Source: Liolophura sinensis
Lineage: Eukaryota; Mollusca; Polyplacophora; Chitonida; Chitonidae
NCBI RefSeq assembly: GCF_032854445.1
Contig: NC_088295.1
Coordinates: forward strand, 92,557,805-92,621,804
DNA length: 64,000 bases
Reading direction: 5' to 3'
Shown here in pieces: positions 4,001 to 56,722 of the stretch (the first letter of the stretch is position 1; every line of letters begins with the position of its first letter). The position numbers and the translations under genes were made by a program. The notes below the pieces were generated by a model that worked only from the letters and a program-made list of their open reading frames with translations, did not search any database and had not been told where the DNA came from.

Positions 4001-4224
4001 ACAGCCCAAAGCTAAGCCACAAAACAAAACCACAGAGAGAAGCCACCATGTGTACAGCCCAAAGTTAAGCTACAGAAACAGAACCACAGAGAGAGCCCAC
4101 CATGTGTACAGCCCAAGGCTAAGCCGCACAAACAGAATCACAGAGAGAACCCACAATGTGTACAGCCCAAGCCTAAGCCACACAAACAGAACCACAGAGA
4201 GAACCCACAATGTGTACAGCCCAG
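1068..4224. repeat. 54-bp minisatellite, about 58 copies
   Basis: The unit is of the type ACAGAACCACAGAGAGAACC followed by CACCATGTGTACAGCCCAAAG and TTAAGCCACACAA, 54 bases in total. Because 54 is a multiple of three, several frames on both strands stay open for 60-220 codons, but the peptides are only 18-residue echoes and no start, splice or domain context supports coding. Between about 3480 and 4070 a four-monomer block repeats with a 215-bp period (one monomer is a base short), which marks a recent block duplication. The array stops abruptly where the BEL/Pao relic begins. Confidence 0.95.
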
Positions 4225-11570: not shown

Positions 11571-12262
11571 AGATCCTTTGGGTTCTTCCCTATGGGTTGG
11601 CTGTTTCTTTCCATTGGCTTTGAGTAGGGTTTCAAGGTTAGAGGCGGAGGTAAACGTGGTTTGTATGTTCAGTTTGTCATGCAGGAGTCTTCTTATCTGT
11701 TAGCTTGGGGTGCCTATATACGGAATGGTTATATATATATTGGGGTGGTCGGGTCTCGTTGCTCTGGTCCTGTTATCTGGATTGAGGGTTTTACTGATCG
11801 TTCTCTCCACTAATTGTGGGGGGTATCGGTTTTGGGTGGTGACGGCTGTTTTGAGGTGATTTATTTCTTCTTGGAGGTTGATGCTGGATATCTGTATGGC
11901 TCGTTTTGTTAGGGTAGATATTATTCCTCTCTTGATCCGATTAGGTTGATTAGATGGGTAATTCACGTATTGGTCTGAGTGCGTGGGTTTGCGTGTATAC
12001 TGAAGTGAGGAGTTTGTCGTTCCTCTTGCTGATAAGTACATCCAGAAACGGTATGGTTTTGTTGCATTCTTGTTCCATGGTGAACTGTATCCTGCTGTTC
12101 TGGGTGTTGAGGTGGTCAAGTAGGGACTGGGGGTTGTCAGTCTTGTTTAGTGCTACGAATGTGTCTACCTTATGGAACCAACACAACGGTTTGATGGGGC
12201 TTGTAGCTAAGGCTTTGTTCTCAAATTCTGTCATGTATATTTCGGAGATAAGTGGTGATAGA

Positions 12263-12276
12263 GGGGGGGGGGGGGG
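12263..12276. repeat. 14-base G homopolymer inside the PLE reverse transcriptase
   Basis: The run lies exactly at the codons for the conserved residues after GLPMGSP. It moves the reading frame and probably arose by slippage expansion of a short C run in the coding strand. Confidence 0.9.
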
Positions 12277-13048
12277 ATCCCATCGGTAATCCGTGAAGTT
12301 GTTCATATATGTCATTTCCCCACGTGAAATAGGTGGACCGCATACACGAGTCCAGAAGGCTGATTATGCTGTCAGGTTTCATGGCTGGGTTGAGGGTGTG
12401 TTGTGTCAGCTTCTGTCGTATGATGTCTAGGGATTCTTCTTTAGGGATATTGGTAAATAGGTCGATGACGTCGTAACTGATCAGTTGGGCTGTGCCTCGA
12501 ATGTCTTTAATTTTGTTACAAAATTCTGCTGAGTCTTTGATGTAAGATTTGGAAGTTTTGCCCAGAGGTGTTAGGAGTTTAGTGAGGTACTCTGCCGTGT
12601 CGTAGTGGACAGTGCCTCTGGAGCAGATCAGGAGTCGGGCTTTGATCGGTTTCTTATGGACTTTGATGGTTGCCCTGGTGTAAGGTGCCCTGGGGTGCGT
12701 TGTGTTGAGCTTTCGGTACAGTTGGATGTCGATTTCATTGCTGTTCTGCAGGGCTCTGAGTTGTGCCCTAAATTCTCTTTCTAGTTTCGGTCTGGGGTCT
12801 TTGGTTATTTGCCTGTATGTCGTTGTATAGCTGAGCATATCGTTGACTAGTTGGTTGAATTTGTTCTTGTCAAGTATAACTGCGGCTCTTCCTCTGTCTG
12901 CAGGGGCGATGGTGATGGTACTATCGGAGCGTAGATTCTTGATGGCCGTTCTTTCTTCTCGGGTGATGTTTGGTTTTTGCTTGGGTGCTTTGATGAGAAT
13001 GTCGCTGATCTGGTGTCGGGTGTAATCAACATTACCTCCAGGGGCGAG

Positions 13049-13106
13049 TATTATTTTCAACTATGCGAATAATGCTACGTATTATTTTCAACTATGCGAA
13101 TAATGC
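13049..13106. repeat. Two direct copies of a 27-bp sequence at the PLE 5' edge
   Basis: TATTATTTTCAACTATGCGA plus ATAATGC occurs at 13049-13075 and again at 13080-13106, separated by 4 bases. It lies immediately beyond the truncated 5' end of the Penelope-like element and could reflect the insertion event or a local duplication. Confidence 0.8.
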
Positions 13107-13883: not shown

Positions 13884-13938
13884 ATGGAGCCATGTGTATC
13901 TCTTCTGACAAGACTATTTTTAATAGCTGTAATATGGG
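13884..13938 (+). CDS. Exon 1: signal peptide
   Basis: Starts at ATG 13884 and encodes MEPCVSLLTRLFLIAVIW, an N-terminal hydrophobic stretch typical of a secretory signal. It ends in a strong donor (GG^GTAAGT) after the first base of a codon (phase 1). Joined to exon 2 the signal continues GLHVGG. The start is the first ATG of the frame and sits directly before the hydrophobic core. Confidence 0.72.
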
Positions 13939-16900
13939 GTAAGTTAACTCGTTGTTGTAATAGGAAGAAATGCTGTAGCAGTTCGTTTGAGACCGCGGAA
14001 TTTGGGCATTCTGATTTAATAGCCTATTTGCGCGCGCCATCACGTTTTACGGGAATTTCAAAGTTGAGGTTGTTGTCATGTGGTTGAGTGACTAACAAAA
14101 GGACCACACTAGCCTGCCCAGGTATCTATCCCTGAGGCCTGGCCGGTCGTTGTACATTTGTTTTTGTTGGAAACAAAATTTAACCGGTGCTAGCAATTAA
14201 GCTTTTGTCTAGCTGTTGGGTTTATACTGATTTGTACCAGCGAGTCTCACACCAAGTCTCACAACAACAATATCCATTATGTGGACAGAATTCATTAAAA
14301 CTACTAGTGATTTAACCATTGTCTATTTCATATCGACCACCATAATACTGGCCGATGTTGTTTAAGTGAAGTATGCGTGAGTGCGGCGTAGAACCGCAAT
14401 CAAATAAACAAAATAAATAAGTAAATATTGCATCGGGTGTAATACTTTTATGTTACCGTCTTTTGACGCAAGAAAGTATAAGTCTATAAAGGACTCGAAA
14501 CAGCGTGTCCTTTCAGACAGTCACTCTATTCCACTTAGTTCATCACCTTGAGCAGTCCTGCAGTATGTTACTTACATATTATTAGCCTATCGCTATGCTG
14601 CAACGTCATGAATAGTAATATAGGGGAGCTAATCATGTGATGTAAACATACACGTGCTATGATCTAAACAAATACACGTGGCAGACTATGACAATATCAC
14701 ATCAGGTAACATGATGTAGGTGATATTATGGGATAGATGGGGCCTCCTTGGCCTATAGTAGCGTGCCAGCGCTGAACAGTGACCTTAGAGCTTCTCACCA
14801 ATGCACTTGTTGTGGGTTCAGCTCATGCTGGCTTCCTCTCCGGTCGTATGTGAGAAAGTCCTGCGGATGGATGTGGGTTTCCCCCGGGCTCTGCCTGGTT
14901 TCCTCTCACCATAATGCTGGTCGCCATTGTATATAAAGTGATATATTCCTGAATATGGCATAAAACACAAATCAAATAAATAAATACATAAACAAATAAA
15001 TATGGGATAGAGTAGACACTGTGTCCAGATAAATCCCAAAGCTGTGTGCTGACGTTTTGATGAATTCTGCCCATATTTCTGGTGCTGCTCTTGAATACAC
15101 TAGCCACAGCTTTGAGCCTCTCTTCACTGCAACAGAAGCGATTACCAAATAACATGAGCAGCCAGTGGCTGCCTGTAGTCGCAGCTGGGTTAAGCTGGAA
15201 TGAGGAAATGAGGAATGTTGGTTCACTGGATTTGGTCATGAGTAAGTATTCTGGGAGGAAACTGACAGACTTGACAAGTTTTTGGGGGAGGGGGATAATG
15301 GTTGTGGAAGAGCCAGTCGAATATATCTATCCCTTACAGATGCACATAAGTATTTAAAAATATTATAATTTTGGTTATTATCAGCCATAGTTCTCAGAAC
15401 ATTGTCCAGGGTAGTGCATTATACCCTATACCTCCACATGTTATCTTTGACTTTGTTGGCTGCTTGTCACTGGATGTGAGCCTGGATGTACGCTCTCGAA
15501 CATGCTGGTCACAGAATTGCTGAATCGCTGAACGTTGTGTTCAAACACGTCAAACGAAGAATTGCAAAGCAGTGAATTGCCTATAGCACCTCATACCATG
15601 TCTCTGGAAGGTAAATCAGTGCAAACTGTTCTGAGTGGAAGAAGTGATAAGAGAGTGAGAGAGCTGTTTGAGTCGGGTATGGGATAATGTGAAGGTAACT
15701 GTCGGGGACAATGTAGTGCGAATGTTGCCTACCCCTTATTGTTATACTTAACTTGTGTAAGGTGCATACTCGGGTACCCCAGGTGTTTATACTTGGCTAA
15801 CTGATTACCTGATTGCCTTTCTAAGGTATGTGGATTTGTATAATAACTTTTCAAAAGCCTCATAAACAAGACATCACGGGACTTTCTTTTGCGCCTACCC
15901 TGTGGGCGGTTCCCACCATCTTGGTCTTTCTTTGGTGTGATATCAGAGTGTTAGGACATGGTAGTTGTATTTGTGCTGAGCGTTGAATAAGGCTCTATAT
16001 CTGACATATGGGTGTTGTGTGTAGTCTTCCTACAGGGCCCGGGGCGGTTTGTTTACTGGCACAGACTACATCCGAAATCAATCCTTACATGCTGATGCAT
16101 GTATCCAATCAAAGCACGCTTACCCAATGTCTTTGGACATTTTTGATAATAATAATATTGGTGTATAATCCCCTACGAAGTTGATTGTTTATGGACCTCT
16201 GAGGAGCATTTGAGAATCAGGCTGACGGTTGAATTTGAAGGCACCGTTTGACCATCGGCAGCACACTCGTAGCCTATCTTGGCAATCATTCCCTTGAGAC
16301 TGGTTTTGTGTTAGTGCCTAGAAAACCCCCTGATTATGATACTAGAAACAAAATGGGTATTATGTTATGATTTAAGGGATAAAATGCTGTAACTATACTG
16401 CCAAGTTCTGTTTAAGATGGTCTTTGTGTTTTGCAGGTTTACACGTAGGTGGTGTTGCGATTAACCGAGGAAATGAAATTGTGAAGTATAAATCATGTCC
16501 AGAAGACACAAAGCCTGTGTTTGTGGACTTGAAGTGCCCTTTTCAATTCTCCACTGCGTCATCTTCCCAACTCATCACCACTAAGTGGACGGATATAACT
16601 CATTACCCAAAGCAGACAACCGTGGTGAACATCAATAATAATGGAACCCTGTTGCCTGGCGATGCTTACCTAAATGCTAACATCACACGGCTTAGCACGG
16701 ATCGTCTTGACGGGTCCATTAGACTGGAGCTCCAAAACACACCCATTGGGGATCTGAGGACCATTGAGTGTGAGGTTTACGTCTTTGGGGATTCCCCCAA
16801 CTTGGACACAAGTACGACTACTGTCATTAACACAGGTGAGTTCAGTGTATCGGTAACACACTTGTGTGTCACAGCATGAAGCATGAGGTGGGCAGCTATT

Positions 16901-22900: not shown

Positions 22901-25900
22901 CGAGAGATAGGAGATACTGCAAAATGAAATGAAAACCACGTGGAGTGAAGTGTCACAATTTTCATATCTACAACAGAATTTTCTTTCCGTCTTTGGAGAA
23001 CGTGCCCTTATCCATGGAGTCAGACAATATTGATGCTGTTATTCTCTGCCCATTCTGGCTGTACATTTACTGCTGTCTATGGCTGTACTGTTGTTTTCAG
23101 ACCCATGCCTCTCTGTCACAACGCCTGCTCCATGCAATTGTCCAACCAGTAAGTACACTCAAACTGGATCTCAAATGTGTGGGCTATTACAGACTTCATG
23201 GATGGTGGACATTTTGTGCTTAAAACCAATGACGGTTAGAAGTGCACCAATTTTGTCATTTAACAAAAAATTTTTTTGTTAATCTAAGAGTAAAGAGTTT
23301 GTAATGTATGGCTCTGAAATTAATTTAATTTCAAGTTTTTCTCCAAGTAAGCGTATATGTGAAGTGAGGCAGCATTGGAAAAAGTCAAGAAAATGGTTTG
23401 ATCAATTTGGTGGAATTACATTTTATGATGATGATTTTTTGCTTGTATTCATCAGCTTTTTCCCCAGATAAAAAATACCCTGGGGCACTTTTCTGTGCAC
23501 TATTCCTCAACTTCTTGCTGTGGTGGTATAATTGCTTTCAGATCCATGCCCTGATTCTTCAGCCCCACTAACATGTCCTGATTGTTCAACCTCAGTAACA
23601 TGTCCTGATTGTTCAACCTCAGTAACATGTCCTGATTGTTCAACCTCAGTAACATGTCCTGATTGTTCAACCTCAGTAACATGTCCTGATTGTTCAATCC
23701 CTGTAACATGTCCAGCATACACAGTCAGTAAGTACACTAACACATGGTGTGTTTGTACGACTTTATTTTCACTGAGGCTGGCATCTATCTGTTAATTTGT
23801 TTGTCCTTTTACTCTCTGAACCCTCTCTGAAATATCCGTTCAGTTCAACTCTTCAATACCAGAGTGCTCCAGTTTGTTGCCACACGTGCACCTAGCCTCC
23901 AAAGAACTATATATCATGCTTGCGTCTGATAACCCAATGTATTGTGATACCCAAACAATTGTGTACAGTAGTCAAGCCGAAGAATCCAGTGTTGCCAGGT
24001 TGAAATGTAAAGAAACCAGTGTATTGCTTGTTCACCTTTGCCAGGTTGAAAGGCCCAGTGTCTTGGGGCTGAACTTAATAGTGTGAAGAATTCAGTGTAT
24101 TGCTTGTTCACCTTTGCCAGGTTGAAAGGCCCAGTGTCTTGGGGCTGAACTTAATAGTGTGAAGAATTCAGTGTATTGCTTGTTCACATTTGCCAGGTTG
24201 AAATGCCCAGTGTCTTGGGGCTGAACATAATGGTGTGAAGAATTCAGTGTATTGCTTGTTCACCTTTGCCAGGTTGAAATGCCCAGTGTCTTGGGGCTGA
24301 ACGTAATAGTGTGAAGAATTCATTGTATTGCTTGTTCACCTTTGCCAGGTTGAAATGCCCAGTGCCTTGGGGCTGAACTTAATAGTACGAAGAATTCATT
24401 GTATTGCTTGTTCACCTTTGCCAGGTTGAAATGCCCTCTGTCTTGGGGCTGAATGTAATGGTGTGAAGAATTCATTGTATTGCTTGTTCACCTTTGCCAG
24501 GTTGAAATGCCCAGTGTCTTGGGGCTGAACTTAATAGTGTGACGAATTCAGTGTATTGCTTGTTCACCTTTGCCAGGTTGTAATGCCCAGTGTCTTGGGG
24601 CTGAACGTAATGGTGTGAAGAGTTCAGTGTATTGCTTGTTCACCTTTGCCAGGTTGAAATGCCCAGTGTCTTGGGGCTGAACTTAATAGTGTGAAGAATT
24701 CAGTGTATTGCTTGTTCACCTTTGCCAGGTTGAAATGCCCAGTGTCTTGGGGCTGAATGTAATGGTGTGAAGAATTCAGTGTATTGCTTGTTCACCTTTG
24801 CCAGGTTGAAATGCCCAGTGTCTTGGGGCTGAACGTAATGGTGTGAAGAATTCAGTGTATTGCTTGTTCACCTTTGCCAGGTTGAAATGCCCAGTGTCTT
24901 GGGGCTGAACTTAATAGTGTGAAGAATTCATTGTATTGCTTGTTCACCTTTGCCAGTTTGAAAAGCCCGCTGAATTAGAGTAAACCTCTCCAGTGTGAAC
25001 ATCTATGTTTATGTACGTGTATTTCTTGTTCACCTAACCATAGAGAAAGCCCTGTTGTTTAAACAGTTTCAAGTTTTAACCTTGCCAAGGTAAAGACACT
25101 AGTGCAACAGTTGTTCACCTCACCTAGGTGAATGCCCCAGTGTTCAAACAATTTTGTGGGTTAATCTTGCCAATGTAAAGATGCCAGTGCAACAGTTGTT
25201 CACCTTACCAGGGCGGAAACTCCTTTGCCTTGGGTTAGTGTTCTGACCTCAGTGTAGTAGATGTGCTTTATATTCACCTAACCAAGGTGAAACACCACTG
25301 TTTTAGGTGTGCGGTAATCCAGTGTGAAGACCCCAATGTATTGACTTGATCAGCTATCTCAGGGGTCAGCCACAGTGTTGTTAAGTCTATAAGAATGATG
25401 TGTCAAACATAGACACATTAACCTAGGGTCATCCGACTGGTGTTGAAGTGTTGGGCGAATAACCTGACTAAGTTCCAAGTGATTTTCTGTTGGAAACTGT
25501 CTTTTTTTCCTCTTTCCTCTCTCCCTTTTCTTGCTCTGCTTACATGCTTTGTTTTCACCTGCATAGAGTTTTTATCCCAAAGCAGTAATGTTTAGCGCTA
25601 AGATGTTTTTATGGATACATGTAGCAAGATGCTTTTGAGGGTACATGTAGCAAGATGTTTTTATGGATACATGTAGCAAGATGCTTTTGTGGATACATGT
25701 AGCAGAAGTAGAGGTTTTGACTCAAATTTCAGCAGTAATCAGACCTGTGTTGTAGAGCTTGCAGTGATGTTCAGTTAGACATGTTGTATGCCCTGATGCT
25801 GATCACAAAGCACTCTGATTCAGTGTGTATCCTCCAATGGGTTGTTGCTTGTTGCTTTCCTGTTTTTTTTTTTGGTCTTGTGGCAAGGTTGAATACATTC

Positions 25901-28900
25901 GTTATTCATTCTTAATCTTGGCATGTGACAGCTATTAAATACTTCCGACCTGATACCAATTAAGATACCAATTTATGTTTAGTGAAGGGTAGTGAAAACA
26001 ACAGTGAGAGTTTTTGATAAAAATCTGGGGGCAAATCCCGTCACTGTGGAATTATGTCTATTTGAAAACGTTGCTTGTTTTTGTGCCTTGTGCCCAGTGT
26101 ATTGATCAACACTTACTTCTGGCTGTGCCCATGTGTCATTGTTTTCAGAACCTTGTCCTGAATCTGCAACCACTGTAGAATGCCCAACATGTCCAGTCAG
26201 TAAGTAAAACAGAGATTTGGATGTGTGAAAATACAATGTGACGGAGAAAATATGTAGCACCACCTGAAGATGGCCTCTCTTCTGTGATCAGAGAAAGCTA
26301 CATATCTGCACACATGTACATATAAAGTTTACTGTAGTATGAGAATAAGTAACCAGTCTTTAGAAATGATGCTGTCGGAACTTGCTCTGTTTTCTTACCT
26401 TCATAACTAAAAAAAACTTTCTGTATTTTGTTTCTTCTGTACGGTCTTTAATAAAACCATATATAAGTATAACCAGATGAAATTAAAATGTCTCGTAAGT
26501 CACAAAACTGTAACACTTCAGATAAAGGTCTACCATTGAGCCGTACTAAACTACAAGAGTGCACATGCAGTTGAAAATTATTATCCAGTGGGTTCGATTT
26601 GTCTTTTTGATAATTGAATACATAGCAAAGCACCTTTCCTCTGCTGAATTACTTCTGACATGGGCTTCTGACACTGGAGCAGTTTCCTGCCATTTTGGCT
26701 CCTTGTTAACACACTTTTAATGCTGGTTTCATTATAATGTTTCATCTGAATGACTTTCATCTGGCCACTGGTCAGTGCTGTTTGCCCATGGTCAGTTCTG
26801 TGTGCTGGTGGTTAGTGCTGTGTGCTGGTGGTCAGTGCTGTGTGCCGGTGGTCAGTGCTGTCTGCTAGTCGTCAGTGCTGTGTGCAGGTGGTCAGTTCTG
26901 TGCTGGTGGTCAGTGCTGTGTGCCAGTGCTCAGTGCTGTGTGCCAGTGCTCAGTGCTGTGTGCCAGTGGTCAGTTCTGTGTGCCGGTGGTCAGTGCTGTG
27001 TGCTGGTGGTCAGTTCTGTGTGCCAGTGCTCAGTGCTGTGTGATGGTGGTCAGTTCTGTGCCCGGTGCTCAGTGCTGTGTGCCGGTGGTCAGTGCTGTGT
27101 GCCGATGCCAGTGGTCAGTGCTGTGTGCCGATGCCGGTGGTCAGTCCTGTGTGCCGGTGGTCAGTGCTGTGCGCGGGTGTTCAGTGCTGTGCGCCGGTGT
27201 TCAGTGCCGTGTGCCGGTGGTCAGTGCTGTGCGCGGGTGTTCAGTGCTGTGCGCCGGTGTTCAGTGCTGTGTGCCGGTGGATAGTTCTGTGCCCCAGTGG
27301 ATAGTTCTGTGTGGCGGTGATCAGTTCTGTGTGCCGGTGGTCAGTGCTGTGCGCGGGTGTTCAGTGCTGTGTGCCGGTGGACAGTTCTGTGCCCCGGTGG
27401 TCAGTTCTGTGTGCCGGTGGTCAGTGCTGTGTACCGGTGGACAGTGCTGTGTGCTGGTGGACAGTTCTGTGCCCCGGTGGTCAGTGCTGTGCGCCGGTGG
27501 TCAGTGCCGTGTGCCTGTGGTCAGTGCTGTGTGCCTGTGGTCAGTGCTGTGTGCCGGTGGTCAGTGCTGTGCGCGGGTGGTCAGTGCTGTGTGTGGGTGT
27601 TCAGTGCTGTGCGCTGGTGTTCAGTGCTGTGCGCCGGTGTTCAGTGCTGTGTGCTGGTGGACAGTTCTGTGCCCCAGTGGTCAGTTCTGTGTTCCGGTGG
27701 ACAGTTCTGTGCCCCGGTGGTCAGTTCTGTGTGCCGGTGGTCAGTGCTGTGCGCGGGTGGTCAGTGCTGTGTGTGGGTGTTCAGTGCTGTGCGCCGGTGT
27801 TCAGTGCTGTGTGCTGGTGGACAGTTCTGTGCCAAGGTGGTCAGTTCTGTGTTCCAGTGTTAGGTGCTGTGCGCCGGTGGTCAGTGCCGTGTGCCTGTGG
27901 TCAGTTATGTGTGCTGGTGGTCAGTGTGGTTCTGCCCGCCACAGCTAACAGTGAGTGTTGAATTCCCCTGGCTGGAGTGTTGTGTGTTATGAATCTCTCT
28001 ACCCTGGACATTGTTTTCAGGTTCATGCAAGACTTTAAATTGTACAACGAGTTGTAAGTAAACTCTGTGTGTAGTGGTGCGATATTTCTACTGTGTTTGT
28101 GTTGTTGTGTTACCCCTCTATCCGCATCCCACAACACACAATCTACCTGCTTTCACCAAAGCCTAAAATTACTAACTGTGCACTGTATCATAACCATCAA
28201 ACCAGTCTCCACCCCACCCCCTTCCTTCTGCCATACCATTGTTTTATTGTACATCCTTTACTTACTCTTAAATGTTGTGGTTAATTGTCACCATGATAAT
28301 TACTTAGAAAAATGGGCCTCAGCACCTGATGTCCAATAGGTGTGATCAGCAAGGTGGGTTCATGACAAGAAACTTGATCACATCTGTAGAACATTTGTAT
28401 CATCACATGATCAAAGCAAAATCTGTCTGTTTGTTCACATTTGTATTACATGCATTAAAGCAAAGTCTGCTTGTTGGAGTATTATGTCTGCATCATGACC
28501 TGATCAAAGATTAAATGGCTGAAGCACACAAAATAGCCATGTAGTCAGACCCTGAACTCTTCATGCACACATATATGTATATGCTCATTATATATGATAT
28601 AACTATGACTGTATAACTCCTTAAAAAAGTATTTAGAAGGTGATGGAGCAGCATCACAGGGTTTGTGTATGGTATGTGCGTGTATACATTTACAGCTCTA
28701 CATATACATGTACCTGTTTGTGTATGGTATGTGCATGTATACATTTACAGCTCTACATATACATGTACCTGTTTGTGTATGGTATGTGCATGTATACATT
28801 TACAGCTCTACATGCACATATACCTGTTTGTGTATGGTATGTGCGTGTATACATTTACAGCTCTACATATACATGTACCTGTTTGTGTATGGTATGTGCA

Positions 28901-46900: not shown

Positions 46901-49900
46901 GTTCTGTCAGTTTTCACCTGTGTGTAGATTTGGTGCATGTATGTACCACATGAAGAGTGTTGGTTCTTGTCAGTTTTCACCTGTGTGTAGATTTGGTGCA
47001 TGTATGTACCACATGAACAGTGTTGGCTCCGTCAGTTTTCACCTGTGTGTAGATTTGGTGCATGTATGTACCACATGAAGAGTGTTGGTTCTTGTCTGTT
47101 TTCACGTGTGTGTCGATTTGGTGCATGTATGTACCACATGAAGAGTGTTGGTTCTGTCAGTTTTCACCTGTGTGTAGATTTGGTGCGTGTATGTACCACA
47201 TGAAGAGTGTTGGTTCTTGTCAGTTTTCACCTGTGTGTAGATTTGGTGCATGTATGTACCACATGAAGAGTGTTGGCTCCGTCAGTTTTCACCTGTGTGT
47301 AGATTTGGTGCGTGTATGTACCACATGAAGAGTGTTGGTTCTTGTCAGTTTTCACCTGTGTGTAGATTTGGTGCATAAATATGCCACATGAAGAGTGTTG
47401 GTTCTGTCAGTTTTCACCTGTGTGTAGATTTGGTGCATAAATATGCCACATGAAGAGTGTTGGTTCTGTCAGTTTTCACCTGTGTGTAGATTTGGTGCAT
47501 GTATATGCCACATGAAGAGTGTTGGTTCTTGTCAGTTTTCACATGTGTGTCGATTTGGTGCATGTATGTACCACATGAAGAGTGTTGGTTCTTGTCAGTT
47601 TTCACCTGTGTGTCGATTTGGTGCGTGTATATGCCACATGAAGAGTGTTGGTTCTGTCAGTTTTCACCTGTGTGTAGATTTGGTGCGTGTATATGCCACA
47701 TGAAGAGTGTTGGTTCTTGTCAGTTTTCACCTGTGTGTAGATTTGGTGCGTGTATATGCCACATGAAGAGTGTTGGTTCTGTCAGTTTTGACCTGTGTGT
47801 AGATTTGGTGCGTGTATATGCCACATGAAGAGTGTTGGTTCTGTCAGTTTTCTCCTGTGTGTCGATTTGGTGCGTGTATATGCCACATGAAGAGTGTTGG
47901 TTCTGTCAGTTTTCACCTGTGTGTAGATTTGGTGCGTGTATATGCCACATGAAGAGTGTTGGTTCTTGTCAGTTTTCACCTGTGTGTAGATTTGGTGCGT
48001 GTATATGCCACATGAAGAGTGTTGGTTCTGTCAGTTTTGACCTGTGTGTAGATTTGGTGCATGTATGTACCACATGAAGAGTGTTGGTTCTGTCAGTTTT
48101 GACCTGTGTGTAGATTTGGTGCATGTATGTACCACATGAAAAGTGTTGGTTCTGTCAGTTTTTATCTGTGTGTAGGTTTGGTGCATGGATATACCACATG
48201 AAGAGTGTTGGTTCTTGTCAGTTTTCACCTGTGTGTAGATTTGGTGCGTGTATATGCCACATGAAGAGTGTTGGTTCTTGTCAGTTTTCACCTGTGTGTC
48301 GATTTGGTGCGTGTATATGCCACATGAAAAGTGTTGGTTCTTGTCAGTTTTCACGTGTGTCGATTTGGTGCATGTATGTACCACATGAAGAGTGTTGGTT
48401 CTTGTCAGTTTTCACCTGTGTGTCGATTTGGTGCGTGTATATGCCACATGAAGAGTGTTGGTTCTGTCAGTTTTCACCTGTGTGTGGATTTGGTGCGTGT
48501 ATATGCCACATGAAGAGTGTTGGTTCTTGTCAGTTTTCACCTGTGTGTAGATTTGGTGCGTGTATATGCCACATGAAGAGTGTTGGTTCTGTCAGTTTTG
48601 ACCTGTGTGTAGATTTGGTGCGTGTATATGCCACATGAAGAGTGTTGGTTCTGTCAGTTTTCTCCTGTGTGTCGATTTGGTGCGTGTATATGCCACATGA
48701 AGAGTGTTGGTTCTGTCAGTTTTCACCTGTGTGTAGATTTGGTGCGTGTATATGCCACATGAAGAGTGTTGGTTCTTGTCAGTTTTCACCTGTGTGTAGA
48801 TTTGGTGCGTGTATATGCCACATGAAGAGTGTTGGTTCTTGTCAATTTTCACCTGTGTGTAGATTTGGTGCATGTATGTACCACATGGAGAGTGTTGGCT
48901 CTGTCAGTTTTCACCTGTGTGTCGATTTGGTGCGTGTATATGCCACATGAAAAGTGTTGGTTCTTGTCAGTTTTGACCTGTGTGTAGATTTGGTGCATGT
49001 ATATGCCACATGAAGAGTGTTGGTTCTTGTCAGTTTTCACCTGTGTGTAGATTTGGTGCATGTATATGCCACATGAAGAGTGTTGGTTCTTGTCAGTTTT
49101 CACCTGTGTGTCGATTTGGTGCGTGTATATGCCACATGAAGAGTGTTGGTTCTTGTCAGTTTTCACCTGTGTGTCGATTTGGTGCGTGTATATGCCACAT
49201 GAAGAGTGTTGGTTCTGTCAGTTTTCACCTGTGTGTAGATTTGGTGCATGTATGTACCACATGAAGAGTGTTGGTTCTGTCAGTTTTCACCTGTGTGTCG
49301 ATTTGGTGCGTGTATATGCCACATGAAGAGTGTTGGTTCTTGTCAGTTTTCACCTGTGTGTAGATTTGGTGCATGTATGTACCACATGAAGAGTGTTGGC
49401 TCTTGTCAGTTTTGACCTGTGTGTAGATTTGGTGCATGTATGTACCACATGAAGAGTGTTGGTTCTTGTCAGTTTTCACCTGTGTGTAGATTTGGTGCAT
49501 GTATGTACCACATGAAGAGTGTTGGTTCTGTCAGTTTTCACCTGTGTGTCGATTTGGTGCGTGTATATGCCACATGAAGAGTGTTGGTTCTTGTCAGTTT
49601 TCACCTGTGTGTAGATTTGGTGCGTGTATATGCCACATGAAGAGTGTTGGTTCTTGTCAGTTTTCACCTGTGTGTAGATTTGGTGCGTGTATATGCCACA
49701 TGAAGAGTGTTGGTTCTTGTCAGTTTTGACCTGTGTGTAGATTTGGTGCGTGTATATGCCACATGAAAAGTGTTGGTTCTTGTCAGTTTTCACCTGTGTG
49801 TAGATTTGGTGCATGTATGTACCACATGAAGAGTGTTGGTTCTGTCAGTTTTCACCTGTGTGTCGATTTGGTGCGTGTATATGCCACATGAAGAGTGTTG

Positions 49901-52900
49901 GTTCTGTCAGTTTTCACGTGTGTGTAGATTTGGTGCATGTATGTACCACATGAAGAGTGTTGGCTCTGTCAGTTTTCACCTGTGTGTCGATTTGGTGCGT
50001 GTATATGCCACATGAAGAGTGTTGGTTCTGTCAGTTTTCACGTGTGTGTAGATTTGGTGCATGTATGTACCACATGAAGAGTGTTGGCTCTGTCAGTTTT
50101 CACGTTTGTGTAGATTTGGTGCATGTATGTACCACATGGAGAGTGTTGGCTCTGTCAGTTTTTACCTGTGTGTCGATTTGGTGCGTGTATATGCCACATG
50201 AAGAGTGTTGGTTCTGTCAGTTTTCACCTGTGTGTAGATTTGGTGCGTGTATATGCCACATGAAGAGTGTTGGTTCTGTCAGTTTTCACCTGTGTGTAGA
50301 TTTGGTGCATGTATGTACCACATGAAGAGTGTTGGTTCTTGTCAGTTTTCACCTGTGTGTAGATTTGGTGCGTGTATATGCCACATGAAGAGTGTTGGTT
50401 CTGTCAGTTTTCACCTGTGTGTAGATTTGGTGCGTGTATGTACCACATGAAGAGTGTTGGTTCTGTCAGTTTTCACGTGTGTGTAGATTTGGTGCATGTA
50501 TGTACCACATTGAGAGTGTTGGTTCTTGTCAGTTTTCACCTGTGTGTAGATTTGGTGCATGGCTGTACCACATGAAGAGTGTTGGCTCTTGTCAGTTTTC
50601 ACCTGTGTGTCGATTTGGTGCGTGTATATGCCACTTGGAGAGTGTTGGTTCTGTCAGTTTTCACCTGTGTGTAGATTTGGTGCGTGTATATGCCACATGA
50701 AGAGTGTTGGTTCTTGTCAGTTTTCACCTGTGTGTAGATTTGGTGCGTGTATATGCCACATGAAGAGTGTTGGTTCTTGTCAGTTTTCACCTGTGTGTCG
50801 ATTTGGTGCGTGTATATGCCACATGAAAAGTGTTGGTTCTTGTCAGTTTTCACATGTGTGTCGATTTGGTGCATGTATGTACCACATGAAGAGTGTTGGT
50901 TCTTGTCAGTTTTCACCTGTGTGTCGATTTGGTGCGTGTATATGCCACATGAAGAGTGTTGGTTCTGTCAGTTTTCACCTGTGTGTGGATTTGGTGCGTG
51001 TATATGCCACATGAAGAGTGTTGGTTCTTGTCAGTTTTCACCTGTGTGTAGATTTGGTGCGTGTATATGCCACATGAAGAGTGTTGGTTCTGTCAGTTTT
51101 GACCTGTGTGTAGATTTGGTGCGTGTATATGCCACATGAAGAGTGTTGGTTCTGTCAGTTTTCTCCTGTGTGTCGATTTGGTGCGTGTATATGCCACATG
51201 AAGAGTGTTGGTTCTGTCAGTTTTCACCTGTGTGTAGATTTGGTGCGTGTATATGCCACATGAAGAGTGTTGGTTCTTGTCAGTTTTCACCTGTGTGTAG
51301 ATTTGGTGCGTGTATATGCCACATGAAGAGTGTTGGTTCTTGTCAGTTTTCACGTGTGTGTAGATTTGGTGCGTGTATATGCCACATGAAGAGTGTTGGT
51401 TCTGTCAGTTTTCACCTGTGTGTAGATTTGGTGCGTGTATATGCCACATGAAGAGTGTTGGTTCTTGTCAGTTTTCACCTGTGTGTCGATTTGGTGTGTG
51501 TATATGCCACATGAAGAGTGTTGGTTCTTGTCAGTTTTCACCTGTGTGTAGATTTGGTGCGTGTATATGCCACATGAAGAGTGTTGGCTCTGTCAGTTTT
51601 CACCTGTGTGTAGATTTGGTGCGTGTATATGCCACATGAAGAGTGTTGGTTCTTGTCAGTTTTCACCTGTGTGTCGATTTGGTGCGTGTATATGCCACAT
51701 AAAGAGTGTTGGTTCTTGTCAGTTTTCACCTGTGTGTCGATTTGGTGTGTGTATATGCCACATGAAGAGTGTTGGTTCTTGTCAGTTTTCTCCTGTGTGT
51801 AGATTTGGTGCGTGTATATGCCACATGAAGAGTGTTGGCTCTGTCAGTTTTCACCTGTGTGTAGATTTGGTGCGTGTATATGCCACATGAAGAGTGTTGG
51901 TTCTTGTCAGTTTTCACCTGTGTGTCGATTTGGTGCGTGTATATGCCATATGAAGAGTGTTGGTTCTTGTCAGTTTTCACCTGTGTGTAGATTTGGTGCG
52001 TGTATATGCCACTTGGAGAGTGTTGGTTCTGTCAGTTTTCACCTGTGTGTAGATTTGGTGCGTGTATATGCCACATGAAGAGTGTTGGTTCTTGTCAGTT
52101 TTCACCTGTGTGTCGATTTGGTGCGTGTATATGCCACATGAAGAGTGTTGGTTCTTGTCAGTTTTCACCTGTGTGTAGATTTGGTGCGTGTATATGCCAC
52201 ATGAAGAGTGTTGGTTCTTGTCAGTTTTCACCTGTGTGTAGATTTGGTGCGTGTATATGCCACATGAAGAGTGTTGGCTCTGTCAGTTTTCACCTGTGTG
52301 TCGATTTGGTGCGTGTATATGCCACATGAAGAGTGTTGGTTCTTGTCAGTTTTCACCTGTGTGTCGATTTGGTGCGTGTATGTACCACATGAAGAGTGTT
52401 GGTTCTGTCAGTTTTCACCTGTGTGGAGAGTTTGTGCATGGTTGTACCACATGGAGAGTGTTGGTTCTGTCAGTTTTCACCTGTGTGTCGATTTGGTGCA
52501 TGTATGTGCCACATGAAGAGTGTTGGTTCTGTCAGTTTTCACCTGTGTGGAGAGTTTGTGCATGATTGTACCACATGAAGAGTGTTGGTTTCCTCCTCCT
52601 TCATTCGATACATCTGACTGCTATCATACAGGTAAATGAGGAAAACTTCAACACAAACTTAAGAAAATACCTGTGTGTTTTTCTTCCCTGCAGAACTGTA
52701 CCCTATGTTTACCTGTATGCGTTTTGTTTACCTGCAGATTATGACATTGCCGGCGGGGTATGCAGCTGTGTTGAGCTTGTGAGCGTACTAGGTGCACTTA
52801 TCATCACCGTCGTGGGGATTCAAGGTTAATATCTGTCTGCTTTGTGTGTCTGTACCATTGTAATGTACTTCCTCTGCAAAACTCTATTTTGTCAACCTGT

Positions 52901-55900: not shown

Positions 55901-56722
55901 ACCAATGTTCAGGTATGTGTATCTGCATGGAGGCTAGCATTGTTCTGTACAGTATATCTGAACACCATTCTTATGGACTCTTTTACTGTAGGGAAGTCAC
56001 ATACAAACACTCTGATGTTAACATCTACTTTGCATATATATATTTTATCTTAAATGTACATGTATATATTTTATATGTGGTTTTTAAACTCTTAAGGCAG
56101 CACATTTCATTTCAGTACAAGTGTTTCAGTCCATTCCATATATGTGTTACATGGCGCGTGTACATACATACGTTTCTCTGCATGATTCTGTCCTAATTCT
56201 GCTCATTATAAACTTCCATTATAGCTGGTGGTTTGTGTTAGACGTCATTTTGGGAACACATTTTTGTTTTGACACATTTGTGAGCTTGACATTGCTTTGC
56301 TTGAGCGCGTGATCGTTGTACATTATGTTTGGCAGAATATTATGTGACCTTGTACTGATCTGCCAAAACATTCAGTCTATGAGGTATAATGATACATGTA
56401 CATGAAGCTGAAATTCATGTCCACAAACCTCAACAAACGTTAGGACAGTCCGGCACGACATCCTGCTTGTTATATGAATGGATGAGCTTGTTGAGTGCAT
56501 GGTCGTGTTTCTTTTTAAAATCGTGGATTTAAAACGGTTTTGTTTCTTGCAAGTTTCTTTGGATATATTACTGTTGTTTGAATATATATTTCCTGACTGT
56601 GAAGTTTAACTTGAATTTGTTGAAAGGGTTTAAAATTTAAGTCTAATAATGCTTGTCTTTGAATCCTAGACAAGTCCAAGAGCAGTGCACAAAACAATGA
56701 CAGGACAAATGGGGCACAGTGA
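13884..56722 (+). CDS. Ig-like, Cys-rich-stalk, three-pass membrane protein (10-exon gene model)
   Basis: Model: join of 13884-13938, 16437-16835, 23101-23148, 23542-23727, 26149-26199, 28021-28053, 30884-31006, 37685-37801, 52738-52824 and 56670-56722, 1152 nt, 383 residues. Every intron is GT-AG and phase 1, and the joined frame has no internal stop. Order of parts: signal peptide (1 to about 20), Ig-like domain (about 35-135, Cys52-Trp69-Cys130), Cys/Pro/Thr stalk (152-258), membrane helices at about 270-289, 302-327 and 344-365, then a polar tail ending NGAQ. With the N terminus outside, the tail is cytoplasmic. Likely role: cell-surface receptor or adhesion molecule (inference). I do not recognise a named family; CD47 has a comparable Ig-plus-multipass plan but five helices. 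Missing or extra exons are possible. Confidence 0.72.
14335..14427 (+). repeat. 5'-truncated SINE tail copy
   Basis: The segment ACCACCATAATACTGGCCGA through to the CAAATAAACAAAATAAATAA tail aligns by eye to the 3' half of the complete SINE 300 bases downstream, with many substitutions. It is an older copy lacking the tRNA-like head. Confidence 0.75.
14738..15000 (+). mobile_element. Full-length tRNA-derived SINE with 11-bp target duplication
   Basis: A tRNA-like head (CCTTGGCCTATAGTAGCG as degenerate A box; GGGTTCAGCTC as B box) is followed by the widespread molluscan body CCCCCGGGCTCTGCC...ACCATAATGCTGGTCGCC and an AAATAAATA tail. TATGGGATAGA flanks it at 14727-14737 and 15001-15011, so insertion by target-primed reverse transcription is well supported and fairly recent. 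Confidence 0.88.
16437..16835 (+). CDS. Exon 2: Ig-like domain
   Basis: Acceptor TTTTGCAG^ at 16436 and donor ACAG^GTGAGT after 16835 give a 399-nt, phase 1-1 exon, the classic symmetric Ig-domain cassette. It encodes residues 19-151. The features are an extra Cys39, Cys52 (DLKCPF, strand B), Trp69 (TTKWTD, strand C), then DGSIRLELQNTP and IECEVYV with Cys130 (strand F). Potential N-glycosylation sites are Asn87-Gly-Thr and Asn100-Ile-Thr. The fold call is from the Cys-Trp-Cys spacing and strand pattern. Confidence 0.75.
16908..17156. repeat. 96-bp tandem repeat, about 2.6 copies
   Basis: GGCCTGATGTGTGCTGT recurs at 16908, 17004 and (as GGTCTGATGTGT) 17100, with GAAGGATGAATGACCTCTGA in each copy. 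It starts 70 bases after exon 2. Confidence 0.9.
17378..17845. repeat. 30-bp minisatellite (15-bp half units)
   Basis: Alternating halves CTCCACACCTGGAGC and CTCCACATGTTGAGC form a 30-bp unit repeated about 15 times with some half-unit losses. The Pro/Glu-rich and Cys/Gly-rich open frames on the two strands are side effects of the multiple-of-three period; no splice sites flank them. Confidence 0.93.
18178..18428. repeat. 42-bp tandem repeat, about 6 copies
   Basis: GTAACCAATCAGTACCTGGT followed by AACTTTTATACACTGTGAAGCA repeats with moderate divergence. Confidence 0.9.
18672..19053. repeat. 48-bp minisatellite, about 8 copies
   Basis: The unit GATTTGGTTGATGTTTAACA plus CCATGTGCCATAATGTTAATGTACAGTT is nearly identical between copies. 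Open frames in three registers are period artefacts. Confidence 0.95.
19078..19200. repeat. Possible DNA-transposon-derived fragment
   Basis: CAGGGTTCATACA followed by repeated CCTGGAA / CCTTGAAT motifs resembles the ends of widespread non-autonomous DNA transposons. No matching opposite end was found, so this is tentative. Confidence 0.25.
20520..21060. repeat. Diverged ~167-bp tandem repeat, about 3 copies
   Basis: GATTTTGTGTC plus a downstream CATTTGTC...GTCA-GGTTACCAGAT block recurs with starts near 20657, 20824 and 20991, a spacing of about 167 bases. Copies differ by many substitutions, so it is old. Confidence 0.65.
22683..22816. repeat. 22-bp tandem repeat, about 6 copies
   Basis: CAGTAATTCATGAACACAGAAA-type units with alternating ATTCATGAACAC and GTTCATGAATAG versions. 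Confidence 0.9.
23101..23148 (+). CDS. Exon 3: Cys/Pro-rich stalk cassette
   Basis: Acceptor TTGTTTTCAG^ and donor A^GTAAGT bound a 48-nt phase 1-1 exon encoding residues 152-167, DPCLSVTTPAPCNCPT. It is the first of four related cassette exons. The intron after it is only 393 bp. Confidence 0.65.
23542..23727 (+). CDS. Exon 4: Cys-rich stalk with 27-bp coding VNTR
   Basis: Acceptor TTGCTTTCAG^ and donor TCA^GTAAGT bound a 186-nt phase 1-1 exon (residues 168-229). After PCPDSSAPLTC it repeats the nine-residue unit CPDCSTSVT, then ends SIPVTCPAYTV. Each repeat adds two Cys, so the stalk is probably disulphide-bonded. Copy number changes keep the frame because the unit is 27 bp. Confidence 0.7.
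23566..23712 (+). repeat. 27-bp coding minisatellite within exon 4
   Basis: ACATGTCCTGATTGTTCAAC plus CTCAGTA is repeated about five times with almost no nucleotide differences, whereas the first and last copies are diverged. The homogeneity suggests recent expansion and likely length polymorphism. Confidence 0.9.
23975..24963. repeat. 76-bp minisatellite, about 13 copies
   Basis: Each unit contains TTGCTTGTTCACCTTTGCCAG followed by GTTGAAATGCCCAGTGTCTT and GGGGCTGAAC. The pyrimidine run plus CAG resembles a 3' splice site but opens no useful frame. More diverged relatives of the TTGTTCACC...AGG motif continue to about 25310. Confidence 0.95.
25598..25703. repeat. 26-bp tandem repeat, about 4 copies
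   Basis: AAGATGTTTTTATGGATACA plus TGTAGC repeats with minor changes. Confidence 0.88.
26149..26199 (+). CDS. Exon 5: Cys/Pro-rich stalk cassette
   Basis: Acceptor TTGTTTTCAG^ and donor TCA^GTAAGT bound a 51-nt phase 1-1 exon for residues 230-246. The sequence PCPESATTVECPTCPV is clearly related to the start of exon 4 (PCPDSSAPLTCPDC), so exons 3-6 look like products of exon duplication. Confidence 0.68.
26200..28020 (+). other. Intron 5 of the Ig-like membrane gene
   Basis: Phase 1 intron. About 560 bases of unassigned sequence are followed by a 20-bp array that nearly reaches exon 6. Confidence 0.6.
26768..27938. repeat. 20-bp G/T-rich minisatellite, about 58 copies
   Basis: The unit GTGCTGTGTGCCGGTGGTCA, with GTTCTG, GTGTTCA and CGCGGG variants, is strongly skewed (few A on the + strand). 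Since 20 is not a multiple of three, a peptide repeats only every 60 bases, yet all three + frames stay open because the unit lacks stops in any register. No coding signal is implied. Confidence 0.95.
28021..28053 (+). CDS. Exon 6: small Cys stalk exon
   Basis: Acceptor TTGTTTTCAG^ and donor GTT^GTAAGT bound a 33-nt phase 1-1 exon for residues 247-257, SSCKTLNCTTS. It shares its upstream intron end (ACATTGTTTTCAG) with exons 3 and 5. Being tiny, it is the least certain exon, but removing it would not shift the frame. Confidence 0.6.
28661..29433. repeat. 55-bp minisatellite, 14 copies of two monomer types
   Basis: The unit GTTTGTGTATGGTATGTGC plus GTGTATACATTTACAGCTCT and ACATATACATGTACCT alternates irregularly with a version ending ACATGCACATATACCT. 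All three + frames are open for about 260 codons because no register has a stop; I treat this as a repeat artefact. Confidence 0.95.
29770..29963 (+). repeat. Old SINE copy
   Basis: TCTGGTTTCCTTCAGCCATG, then ATATGAGTGAAAAATCCCTT, then AGTATGGCATTAGACATAAA with a GAAATAAATA tail follow the SINE body order seen at 14738-15000 with heavy divergence. Confidence 0.65.
30452..30545 (+). repeat. Old SINE tail copy
   Basis: GGTTTGCTTTCTGCTTCTCC through GAAATATTACTGGGCACAGT and ACCAAACAAATAAATA aligns by eye to the SINE 3' half. A SINE-head-like GTGGCCTCCATGGCATAGTG lies at about 30007, but the 500-base spacing is too long for one intact copy. Confidence 0.55.
30884..31006 (+). CDS. Exon 7: first transmembrane helix
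   Basis: Acceptor GGTTTCCTCAG^ and donor GGAG^GTGAGT bound a 123-nt phase 1-1 exon (residues 258-298). VIHVPEKLGPG leads into the hydrophobic SIALALIALVTAVFNIYMV, followed by the positively charged loop KTNPKLLSG, which fits an out-to-in helix after a signal-peptide-bearing ectodomain. Confidence 0.75.
31340..32672. repeat. 74-bp minisatellite, about 18 copies
   Basis: The unit GGGGACTTTACCCAAAGTAG plus ATGGCCACATGTACCTGCTC, CAGATTTGACTAAATTAGCA and GGCTGCAGCAAAAT repeats with few substitutions. Confidence 0.96.
32978..33034. repeat. Left terminal inverted repeat with GCGAAC repeats
   Basis: The outer 26 bases pair perfectly with the right end (36814-36839). The inner part carries GCGAAC four times, twice on each side of a GGCCAAA spacer, and could be the binding region for transposase or its partner protein (inference). 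Confidence 0.92.
33142..33443 (+). CDS. Harbinger transposase exon 1
   Basis: Encodes the N-terminal 100 residues, including QRRKRKRRVSVHEILQRRSE and the YFRMTEEQFDYILELI segment (the usual N-terminal region before the DDE core). It ends in phase 2 at a consensus donor. Confidence 0.9.
33555..33640. repeat. A-rich low-complexity tract
   Basis: Runs of A broken by single C (AAAACAAAACAAAAA type) within the transposase intron. Confidence 0.9.
34072..34805 (-). CDS. MADF protein exon 2
   Basis: Acceptor CTGTTTCAG^ (minus strand) leads into GTAAAGAAGTGG. It encodes the rest of the MADF domain, the acidic/Ser linker and the BESS-like helix, ending FLDSQGS. It sits wholly inside the transposase intron. 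Confidence 0.9.
34072..36523 (-). CDS. Harbinger-encoded MADF/BESS DNA-binding protein
   Basis: Two minus-strand exons, 36523-36370 and 34805-34072, join in phase 1 to 295 residues with no stops. Exon 1 (MADAEKMDKTEVLILEVAKN...) and the start of exon 2 form one MADF domain: TEVLILEVAKNTVLFD, IWKAIGEKIGLTG | KEVETRWKNVRDGF and YKYAKALSFL. An acidic-Ser linker (SDEEDD) and a basic patch (SKRKQRHTQ) follow, then a BESS-like C-terminal motif (DLFLLSMAETIRKLP...VKFKIYSVVH). In known Harbingers the partner protein binds the element ends and imports the transposase; the same is inferred here. It appears intact. Confidence 0.9.
34806..34853. promoter_or_regulatory. Bidirectional 3' splice-site region shared by two opposing introns
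   Basis: These 48 bases are the last bases of both introns, one on each strand. TATTAATA (34828-34835) is its own complement and fits the TNYTRAY branch-point consensus both ways, placing a branch A 20 nt before the + acceptor and 24 nt before the - acceptor. Pyrimidine runs lie on either side in the right orientation. Confidence 0.75.
34854..35772 (+). pseudogene. Harbinger transposase exon 2 (DDE core)
   Basis: Carries the whole catalytic core. The frame is open on both sides of the TAG at 35170-35172 (LVDYR, stop, RFTFVDIGSYG) and ends with TAG at 35770-35772. The exon lies inside the intron of the antisense MADF gene. Confidence 0.92.
35981..36216. mobile_element. Nested 236-bp mariner-type MITE
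   Basis: Begins CAGGTACGTCTCATAAAATT and ends with the complement of CAGGTACGTCGAAAAAAAAT. Similarity continues inward through AGAATAT-ATG-AAATG for about 50 bases. TA dinucleotides flank it at 35979-35980 and 36217-36218, as for Tc1/mariner. It lies in the MADF intron, so it inserted after the Harbinger or was carried by it. Confidence 0.85.
36370..36523 (-). CDS. MADF protein exon 1
   Basis: ATG at 36523-36521 (minus) opens a 154-nt exon ending ACAG^GTCTGT. It supplies the first helix and second helix start of the MADF domain, without which the downstream frame has only half a domain. Confidence 0.88.
36796..36839. repeat. Right terminal inverted repeat
   Basis: Reads GCGTTCGCGTTCACGTTCGC and then GCTCTGTATAAACGGACCT, the complement of the left end with one altered inner hexamer (GTTCAC). 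Confidence 0.92.
37592..37613 (+). other. Candidate 22-nt alternative microexon
   Basis: TCCTGTTCCTATTTCAG^ upstream and AAT^GTAAGT downstream bound TTGGATTTAGGGACCGTACAAT. Entered in phase 1 it reads (V)GFRDRT and leaves in phase 2, so it cannot splice to exon 8 in frame, but it can splice in frame to an alternative acceptor at 52693. Purely predicted. Confidence 0.4.
37685..37801 (+). CDS. Exon 8: second transmembrane helix
   Basis: Acceptor TGTTTGACAG^ and donor AAGG^GTAAAT bound a 117-nt phase 1-1 exon (residues 299-337). GSK precedes WVALMLSAIGVVLCIPAIVV and SVLYIT, then the polar QEHASDLPYK. The donor is weak compared with the copies of itself amplified just downstream. Confidence 0.75.
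37802..39310. repeat. 84-bp minisatellite, about 18 copies, seeded by the exon 8 donor
   Basis: The unit GGTAAGTGATCTGTGTGACT plus GTTATCATCATCACCATCAC, AGTGATATGTCTGTCAGGTA and CCCACCTGTAATCTACCACACACA begins at the exon 8 splice site. The exon 8 end and intron start (GATCTACCATATAAG^GGTAA) is a diverged first copy. The multiple-of-three length makes long open frames on both strands, which I do not regard as coding. Confidence 0.95.
39311..40070. repeat. 52-bp derivative array, about 14 copies
   Basis: Same unit as the preceding array but lacking the internal ACTGTTATCATCATCACC...GATATGT part (32 bases). Later copies change to AATTTGCCACATGCAGATAA. Confidence 0.93.
40278..52590. repeat. 62/63-bp minisatellite, roughly 200 copies over 12.3 kb
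   Basis: Unit GGTTCTGTCAGTTTTCACCT plus GTGTGTAGATTTGGTGCATG and TATGTACCACATGAAGAGTGTT; a TTCTTGTCAG version is one base longer. Variants (GTGTATATGCC, GTCGATTT, GCTCCGTC, TTGACC) recur in the same order in distant blocks, for example around 43.3-44.3 kb and 47.4-48.4 kb (offset about 4.12 kb), showing block duplications inside the array. The final copies (52420-52590) are diverged (GGAGAGTTTGTGCATG). Confidence 0.97.
52738..52824 (+). CDS. Exon 9: third transmembrane helix
   Basis: Acceptor TACCTGCAG^ and donor CAAG^GTTAAT bound an 87-nt phase 1-1 exon (residues 338-366). DYDIAGGVCSCVELVSVLGA continues LIITVVGIQ. A Cys-x-Cys pair and Glu350 sit at the start of the helix. A stronger-looking acceptor (TTTTTCTTCCCTGCAG) 44 bases upstream keeps the same downstream frame but needs phase 2. 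If the GTTAAT donor is not used, a TAA follows immediately. Confidence 0.65.
53098..53230. repeat. 33-bp tandem repeat, about 4 copies
   Basis: TTACTCCGCCCTGTTGCTAT plus GTAGAGCAGCATT repeats with small changes. Confidence 0.9.
53851..54570. repeat. 30-bp minisatellite with a 314-bp higher-order repeat
   Basis: Units of GTTCAGTTTGATAGACTAGA plus GATACACACT. A block from about 53922 recurs almost exactly at 54236, an offset of 314 bases, including a shortened CGTTCAGTGTGATAGAG monomer. Confidence 0.94.
55345..55826. repeat. 44-bp minisatellite, about 11 copies
   Basis: GTGGGGCAGACAAACTCATT plus GGGGGACCAGCACATGTTGTGCAT, with shorter (about 39-bp) copies. Confidence 0.93.
56670..56722 (+). 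CDS. Exon 10: cytoplasmic tail and stop
   Basis: Acceptor TTTGAATCCTAG^ leads in phase 1 to DKSKSSAQNNDRTNGAQ and TGA at 56720-56722. The short hydrophilic tail after a membrane helix is a sensible end. The downstream sequence would be 3' UTR. Confidence 0.6.

Follow-up and report, generated by a model that had tools for sequence, protein, structure and literature searches.

A predicted V-set-like receptor gene with three phase-1 membrane-helix exons in the chiton Liolophura sinensis, likely a diverged member of a genomic family

A ten-exon gene model in a single frame

We identified a candidate protein-coding gene of ten exons on the plus strand of a 64,000-nucleotide window (the whole stretch of DNA analyzed, C1:92,557,805-92,621,804; contig C1 is 96.4 Mb long) of the Liolophura sinensis genome (Table 1). 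The genome that we searched comprises 609,464,459 bases in 632 contigs; the available text of the report on this chiton genome, deposited under Liolophura japonica, puts the size at 609.5 Mb, in 632 scaffolds (PMC11068029), and the species name has been corrected from L. japonica to L. sinensis (PMC12441733). The initial annotation had proposed that ten exons join in one frame, and this model could be rebuilt exactly from the sequence between 13884 and 56722: the spliced exons make 1152 nt in a single frame, encoding 383 amino acids and a stop that ends at 56722. The signal peptide, Ig-like domain, Cys stalk, three helices, and short polar tail that it had described are each present in the sequence. 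The start codon (ATG at 13884) has A at -3 and G at +4, and an in-frame TAA lies 18 bases upstream of it, at 13866.

Table 1. Predicted exons of the gene, in window coordinates, with the evidence for each.
Feature	Position (bp)	Strand	Evidence and remarks
Exon 1, signal peptide MEPCVSLLTRLFLIAVIWG	13884..13938	+	phase-1 donor gtaagt; in-frame TAA upstream
Exon 2 (1-1), divergent V-set-like Ig domain	16437..16835	+	hhalign to chiton V-set profiles; phase-1 frame alone open
Exon 3 (1-1), Cys stalk micro-exon	23101..23148	+	joined model, phase-free frame check
Exon 4 (1-1), Cys stalk, in-frame 27-bp repeat CPDCSTSVT	23542..23727	+	tandem-array and frame check
Exon 5 (1-1), Cys stalk micro-exon	26149..26199	+	joined model, phase-free frame check
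Exon 6 (1-1), Cys stalk micro-exon	28021..28053	+	joined model, phase-free frame check
Exon 7 (1-1), membrane helix 1 and basic loop	30884..31006	+	hydropathy; family TM1 profile, 2/500 shuffles as good
Exon 8 (1-1), membrane helix 2 and acidic loop	37685..37801	+	hydropathy; family TM2 profile, 16/500
Exon 9 (1-1), membrane helix 3, weak donor gttaat	52738..52824	+	hydropathy; family TM3 profile unmatched, 251/500
Exon 10, 17-residue polar cytoplasmic tail, TGA stop	56670..56722	+	joined model

All nine introns (9/9) of the rebuilt model are in phase 1, those around the membrane exons included, just as had been claimed. This rule is not an artefact of seeking phase 1 only, because lengths and open frames hold from the exon borders alone: with no frame assumed, the length is 0 mod 3 in 8/8 internal exons, phase 1 leaves an open frame in each of the eight, and in six of them no other frame is open (the exceptions are 23101-23148, open in all three frames, and 28021-28053, open in two). 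A scan for T[TC][TC]CAG returned eight rows with a GTAAGT donor, and the four among them with a length divisible by three are the four stalk micro-exons. Splice signals alone are indecisive, since at loose thresholds open 1-1 candidates number 25, a figure within the range of the other phase classes (16-30). The codon-usage score, which was trained on titin-like Ig exons, is dominated by amino-acid composition, and is not counted as proof, falls below zero in 4/8 internal exons. The predicted splicing is least certain around the last two helices: exon 8 has extra in-frame acceptors at 37640 and 37664, the donor of exon 9 (AAG/gttaat) is poor (0.5 with a generic splice matrix), and the blind helix-exon scan described below favored a rival acceptor for exon 9 at 52694, in phase 2-1.

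Ig-type genes such as MHC class I also carry a phase-1 intron after the membrane exon, so phase 1 at one helix exon is not unheard of; three phase-1 helix exons in series within a family could not be matched to a known case. In the available text of a treatment of exon shuffling, class 1-1 includes the titin Ig modules, and phase-1 introns are described as common near signal-peptide cleavage sites (PMC8001218). The gene resembles the class 1-1 shuffled modules treated there in that its introns are all in phase 1, the one at the signal-peptide boundary included; it differs in that those modules, as far as that text goes, are extracellular, membrane-associated, or from muscle, whereas here the membrane-helix exons are also 1-1 (PMC8001218).

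The Ig-like head and the Cys stalk

Exon 2 carries what we take to be the hallmark positions of a V-set domain (C52, W69, L115, D124, and C130). Searched alone against Pfam, it matched no Ig model and gave below-cut-off rows only, so the Ig assignment required a profile test. We utilized hhalign to compare exon 2 with a profile of eleven chiton V-set domains, and obtained a score of 28.1 (E 2.2e-4), whereas 100 shuffles reached 16.9 at most and the reversed sequence 18.1; this sequence match to V-set profiles upholds the Ig-like domain of the initial annotation. Exon 2 scored 27.4 against the six V domains of the three-pass family described below (0/200 shuffles as good, maximum 21.2), and 21.3 against five V domains outside that family (again 0/200), where “outside the family” means places from the V-set genome search that are absent from the lists of the three family queries, the downstream DNA having been examined at two of the five. 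The five outside V-sets themselves score 29.9-49.4 against the family profile, all above exon 2, which in fact scores below each of the 11 V-sets run against that profile; exon 2 would therefore be a strongly diverged case. AlphaFold2, run on exon 2 alone without an alignment, gave strands only (pLDDT 36), and the best row of a PDB sequence search with exon 2 and the first stalk exon had an E of 0.18. A head profile of seven rows (exon 2 and six clear V-sets) matched solved V domains, including JAML (1.4e-12) and VCBP3 (6.1e-9), among the best 60 of 1206 rows; since six of the seven rows are clear V-sets, these matches support the family more than exon 2.

The stalk has 107 residues, among them 21 Cys, 36 Ser/Thr, and 18 Pro. 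Its four micro-exons have common edges (ttttcag, in one case ctttcag, and gtaagta) and an early Cys, which indicates exon duplication, and exon 4 contains an in-frame 27-bp tandem array of 6.3 copies (23545-23713). The stalk may thus have grown through micro-exon duplication together with the in-frame repeat, and would probably be disulfide-laced and O-glycosylated; putative N-glycosylation motifs are located at residues 87, 100, and 253.

A V-set family with three-helix exons in the same genome

A V-set search of the genome found 20 places. Three of these V-set domains, used in turn as queries, returned 33, 29, and 22 rows (E up to 0.01), from which a hand count gives 37 distinct family places: 31 on C2 (a 28-Mb scaffold) and four on C347 (a small contig), which together hold 35, and one each on C6 and C1. 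Nine of the 37 contain stops or are in fragments. Such a distribution, with many copies, some of them broken, and most of them on one scaffold, would suit birth-and-death evolution as in recognition families. Genome searches with exon 2 and with the whole window protein returned no Ig- or helix-exon paralog, the stalk-like matches of the whole protein elsewhere being Cys repeats, and neither the V-set search nor the three family queries reached exon 2 of the window gene.

Nine stretches of 9.9 kb, each lying downstream of a family V exon, were scanned for hydrophobic open exons with splice signals, without requiring any phase. On the sense strand this blind scan gave 23 candidates (18 in class 1-1), compared with three (one in class 1-1) on the antisense strand. 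Three further family loci (L047, L048, and L049) and two V-set loci outside the family (L050 and L051) were fetched afterwards as a test, and three helix exons were found in two of the three family loci and in neither of the outside loci (0/2): L047, on C6, carries three helix exons of class 1-1; in L048 two helix exons are 1-1, and the third is entered in phase 1 and continues to a stop; L049 offers no convincing helix exon; and at the standard threshold one outside locus has no helix and the other a single helix (1-0). These five later stretches combined gave nine sense candidates (five of them 1-1) and two antisense candidates (one of them 1-1).

Altogether, three membrane-helix exons lie downstream of the V exon in 10 of the 12 family loci; the set was not found at L049 or at the first gene of L043 (a second gene at L043 is cut). 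When the phase at the 30 helices of the ten loci was left to whichever acceptor and donor scored best in the open frame, entry was in phase 1 in 30/30 and exit in 26/30, the best donor being in another phase for TM2 of L041, TM1 and TM3 of L044, and TM3 of L048, the last of which runs to the stop. The standard threshold alone recovers three 1-1 helix exons in 4/12 loci (L038, L040, L042, and L047), and also three in L041, where TM2 was picked as 1-2 and a 1-1 alternative exists. The sets at the other loci were filled in below threshold, from homology, or by reading (TM2 of L039, TM3 of L044, TM1 and TM3 of both L045 and L046, and TM3 of L048); among these, TM2 of L039 is weakly hydrophobic (1.4), and TM3 of L048 comes from a terminal-exon scan and was picked by its likeness to the family TM3. 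Several candidates were left unused: 258-484 and 607-720 (both in a tandem array) and 4944-5176 (1-0, beyond TM3) in L038; 9509-9649 (1-1), a further hydrophobic candidate 3.7 kb past TM3, in L041; 1557-1780 (2-1) in L048; and 966-1158 (0-1) and 2756-2871 (1-0) in L049. Given the extra candidates past TM3, at L038 and L041 three helices are seen in order, and the full number may be larger.

The relative designated L024/L038, which lies on the strand of the window gene and 236 kb past the window, is the only one that was read through: its signal peptide, V exon, TM1, TM2, and TM3 join with all introns in phase 1 and with no stop, and a Cys stalk is absent. The V exon of this nearest family gene is separated from its TM1 by a stretch that holds a 24-bp tandem array of 44 copies (L038:281-1344), which is partly open in phase 1 as a Ser/Thr-rich repeat and which we read as intron.

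The helix exons of six relatives appear to be under constraint, with pN below pS in 15/15 pairs and dN/dS of 0.18-0.57 in the nine pairs that lack synonymous saturation. At the level of sequence, the plan of the window gene, a V-set domain followed by three helices, is thus common to a family of the same genome and is not a one-off.

Comparison of the window helices with the family helices

TM profiles were built from the ten paralogs, each paralog was tested without itself, and the scores were compared with those of 500 shuffles. The helices of L040, L041, L044, L045, L046, and L048 were recognized above all 500 shuffled sums; the summed scores of the remaining four were equaled by 1/500 shuffles (L047), 7/500 (L038), 79/500 (L042), and 110/500 (L039), so that the helices of the last two went unrecognized. 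For the window protein, 1/500 shuffles was as good as the sum of its three helices. Since 2 and 16 shuffles were as good for its TM1 and TM2, vs. 251 of 500 for its TM3 (Table 1), the sequences suggest a moderate link to the family helices for TM1 and TM2, and none for TM3. TM2 of the window protein scored 7.5 bits against the family TM3 profile, better than its own TM3, and with a smaller TM profile 12, 44, and 23 of 200 shuffles were as good as the three window helices. The gene has the arrangement by which the family was recognized, in which a V-type exon precedes three helix exons, each with phase-1 entry; it is a likely member of the family.

Membrane topology and alternative readings

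The window protein has three hydropathy peaks after the signal peptide (2.27, 2.78, and 2.43, at residues 271-289, 303-321, and 345-363). The charges are +3 in the loop between helices 1 and 2, -2 in the loop between helices 2 and 3, and +1 in the tail; summed over 11 proteins they are +29, -1, and +24, and loop 1-2 is more positive than loop 2-3 in nine of the 11 (the exceptions are L040 and L048). This charge pattern fits a serial three-pass protein with its N-terminus outside and its C-terminus inside, rather than a set of interchangeable single anchors.

The alternative that survives best, and that we nonetheless consider unlikely, is that the helix exons are alternative symmetrical cassettes, of which one or two are included per transcript, giving one-pass or secreted forms, with the three-pass form rare or absent. 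Such a use would be open to this gene, since the internal exons are all 1-1 and therefore any one of them could be skipped with the frame kept; the three in-frame acceptors of exon 8 and the poor donor of exon 9 point in the same direction. The charges, however, both in the window protein and over the 11 proteins, fit an opposite orientation of helix 2 within a serial chain, and the same order of the three helix exons is kept at ten related loci.

Somewhat less probable is a tetraspan in which the signal peptide stays uncleaved as the first helix, the N-terminus lies inside, and the Ig domain and stalk form the first extracellular loop, a topology (not a homology) like that of claudins and MS4A proteins. 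Cleavage of signal peptides follows the (-3,-1) rule, and although the N-terminal hydrophobic stretch reaches a hydropathy of 1.96, its G/A residues fit the (-3,-1) pattern. In the Pfam scan of the window protein neither claudin nor MS4A appears, and the cleavage boundary is also the site of a phase-1 intron, a position near which such introns are common according to the available text of PMC8001218.

A third reading, to which we give less weight again, takes the model for a decayed gene, or for two genes, an upstream secreted or GPI-type Ig protein and an unrelated downstream membrane protein whose phases match by chance. The long introns full of tandem arrays, with a transposon in one of them, and the negative codon-usage score in half of the internal exons speak for this reading; against it stand the continuous 383-aa frame across ten exons, the in-frame stop that precedes the ATG, and the family loci, in which a V exon and then three helix exons occur within 9.9 kb.

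Finally, that the three-helix set is a chance product of hydrophobic-exon scanning, and the family likeness an artefact, is very improbable: hydrophobic open exons do arise randomly, above all in tandem arrays (the minus strand of the window has 19 candidates, none 1-1, and the plus strand eight, three of them 1-1), and the terminal-exon scan also yields rows in the control loci (four in L050 and two in L051), but chance would not account for the excess of sense over antisense candidates, the uniform phase-1 entry of the 30 helices, the six loci whose helices, each compared with the corresponding profile of the remaining loci, outscore every shuffled sum, or the consistent deficit of pN relative to pS.

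The reading that we favor, at a probability of roughly 0.65, is that this locus of L. sinensis holds a real protein-coding gene for a cell-surface recognition or adhesion receptor with a V-set-like head, a Cys stalk, and a three-helix anchor, probably a diverged member of the V-set/three-pass family. The open model, its intron phases, the family plan at ten further loci, and the charges of the loops are seen directly in the sequences, while the modeled splicing, the place of the window gene in the family, the stalk glycosylation, and a role in recognition are inferred.

Predicted mode of action and comparison with known systems

In this receptor, cleavage of the signal peptide would export a single V-set-like Ig head, and such a head, held on a stiff stalk that is probably glycosylated, would suit the binding of a ligand on another cell or on a microbe. 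The three helices, with the N-terminus outside and the C-terminus inside, would serve as the membrane anchor. The 17-residue tail contains no tyrosine, and hence no ITAM or ITIM tyrosine motif; a very short tail of this kind would imply signaling via a partner, or an adhesion or decoy role, and its combination with three helices may favor clustering or partner-mediated signaling rather than direct signaling. Recognition or adhesion would be the likeliest use of the receptor.

We found nothing above the cut-off in Pfam for the whole 383-aa protein or for its membrane part, and only below-cut-off rows in NCBIfam for the whole protein, which agrees with the earlier statement that it matches no named family; a PDB sequence search with the membrane part had a best E of 0.44. 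Membership among the claudin or MS4A tetraspans was rejected (no such Pfam row, and three helices after the signal peptide), as was identity with CD47 (no CD47 row in the Pfam scan, and three helices). CD47 consists of a V-set domain and five helices, with the N-terminus outside, the C-terminus inside, and a short tail. The window protein is like it in having one V-type head, an odd number of helices, the same predicted orientation, and a short tail, and differs from it in having three helices instead of five, and a Cys-rich stalk. Among the three relatives that were joined, V-set_CD47 appeared in two, below the cut-off only (E 0.1 and 0.035).

The head profile also links the family to VCBP3, JAML, CD226, nectin, and TCR alpha, whose solved V domains it matches; we know of no three-helix anchor in VCBP3 or in these vertebrate V-set receptors. 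The Alr proteins of Hydractinia are single-pass, in contrast to the three passes of the chiton family. They resemble it as a multigene invertebrate family with V-set heads, the available text on this allorecognition family giving 41 genes with V-set and I-set domains (PMC11999971). A literature search of limited coverage (Ig or V-set domains with three helices, molluscs, phase 1, CD47, and Hydractinia) found no V-set/three-helix family.

Invertebrate multigene V-set receptors are natural candidates for recognition systems, and the relatives described here turn a one-gene oddity into a family. If our reading is correct, a family anchored by three helices adds a membrane plan that we could not match to any named one, and the phase-1 rule known from shuffled extracellular modules can extend to membrane-helix exons, which would leave head, stalk, and anchor free to recombine. 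It is about an even bet that chitons, and perhaps other lophotrochozoans, possess an undescribed family of three-pass V-set receptors encoded by phase-1 exons, the helices included, which grew into a recognition set through birth and death, chiefly on a single chromosome, and of which the window gene would be an early stalk-bearing branch.

Repeats, transposons, and other observations

Intron 7 (31007-37684) contains a transposon of the PIF/Harbinger kind, with a DDE_Tnp_4 domain at 35173-35772 (plus strand, E 2.5e-21) and, on the reverse strand at 34072-34962, a reading frame of the MADF/BESS type. Most of intron 8 is filled by a 12.3-kb minisatellite (40287-52590) with about 197 copies of a 62-bp unit, and several other introns of the gene also have tandem arrays. 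Two more arrays are located near the start of the window, at 1-389 (11 copies of 35 bp) and 1070-4223 (59 copies of 54 bp). Upstream of the gene, the region 11950-13060 contains overlapping reading frames on the reverse strand, which we take to resemble a retroelement reverse transcriptase; their best Pfam rows (E 0.049 and 0.28) are noise.

Two observations were made elsewhere in the genome. At L031 (C2:25806320-25806601, reverse strand), a V-set domain is encoded in a single open frame with a hydrophobic C-terminus followed by a stop, and the protein is perhaps GPI-anchored. On C11, a 453-residue open frame of Cys repeats (5335321-5336331) resembles the stalk of the window protein, with a best E of 4.5e-7.
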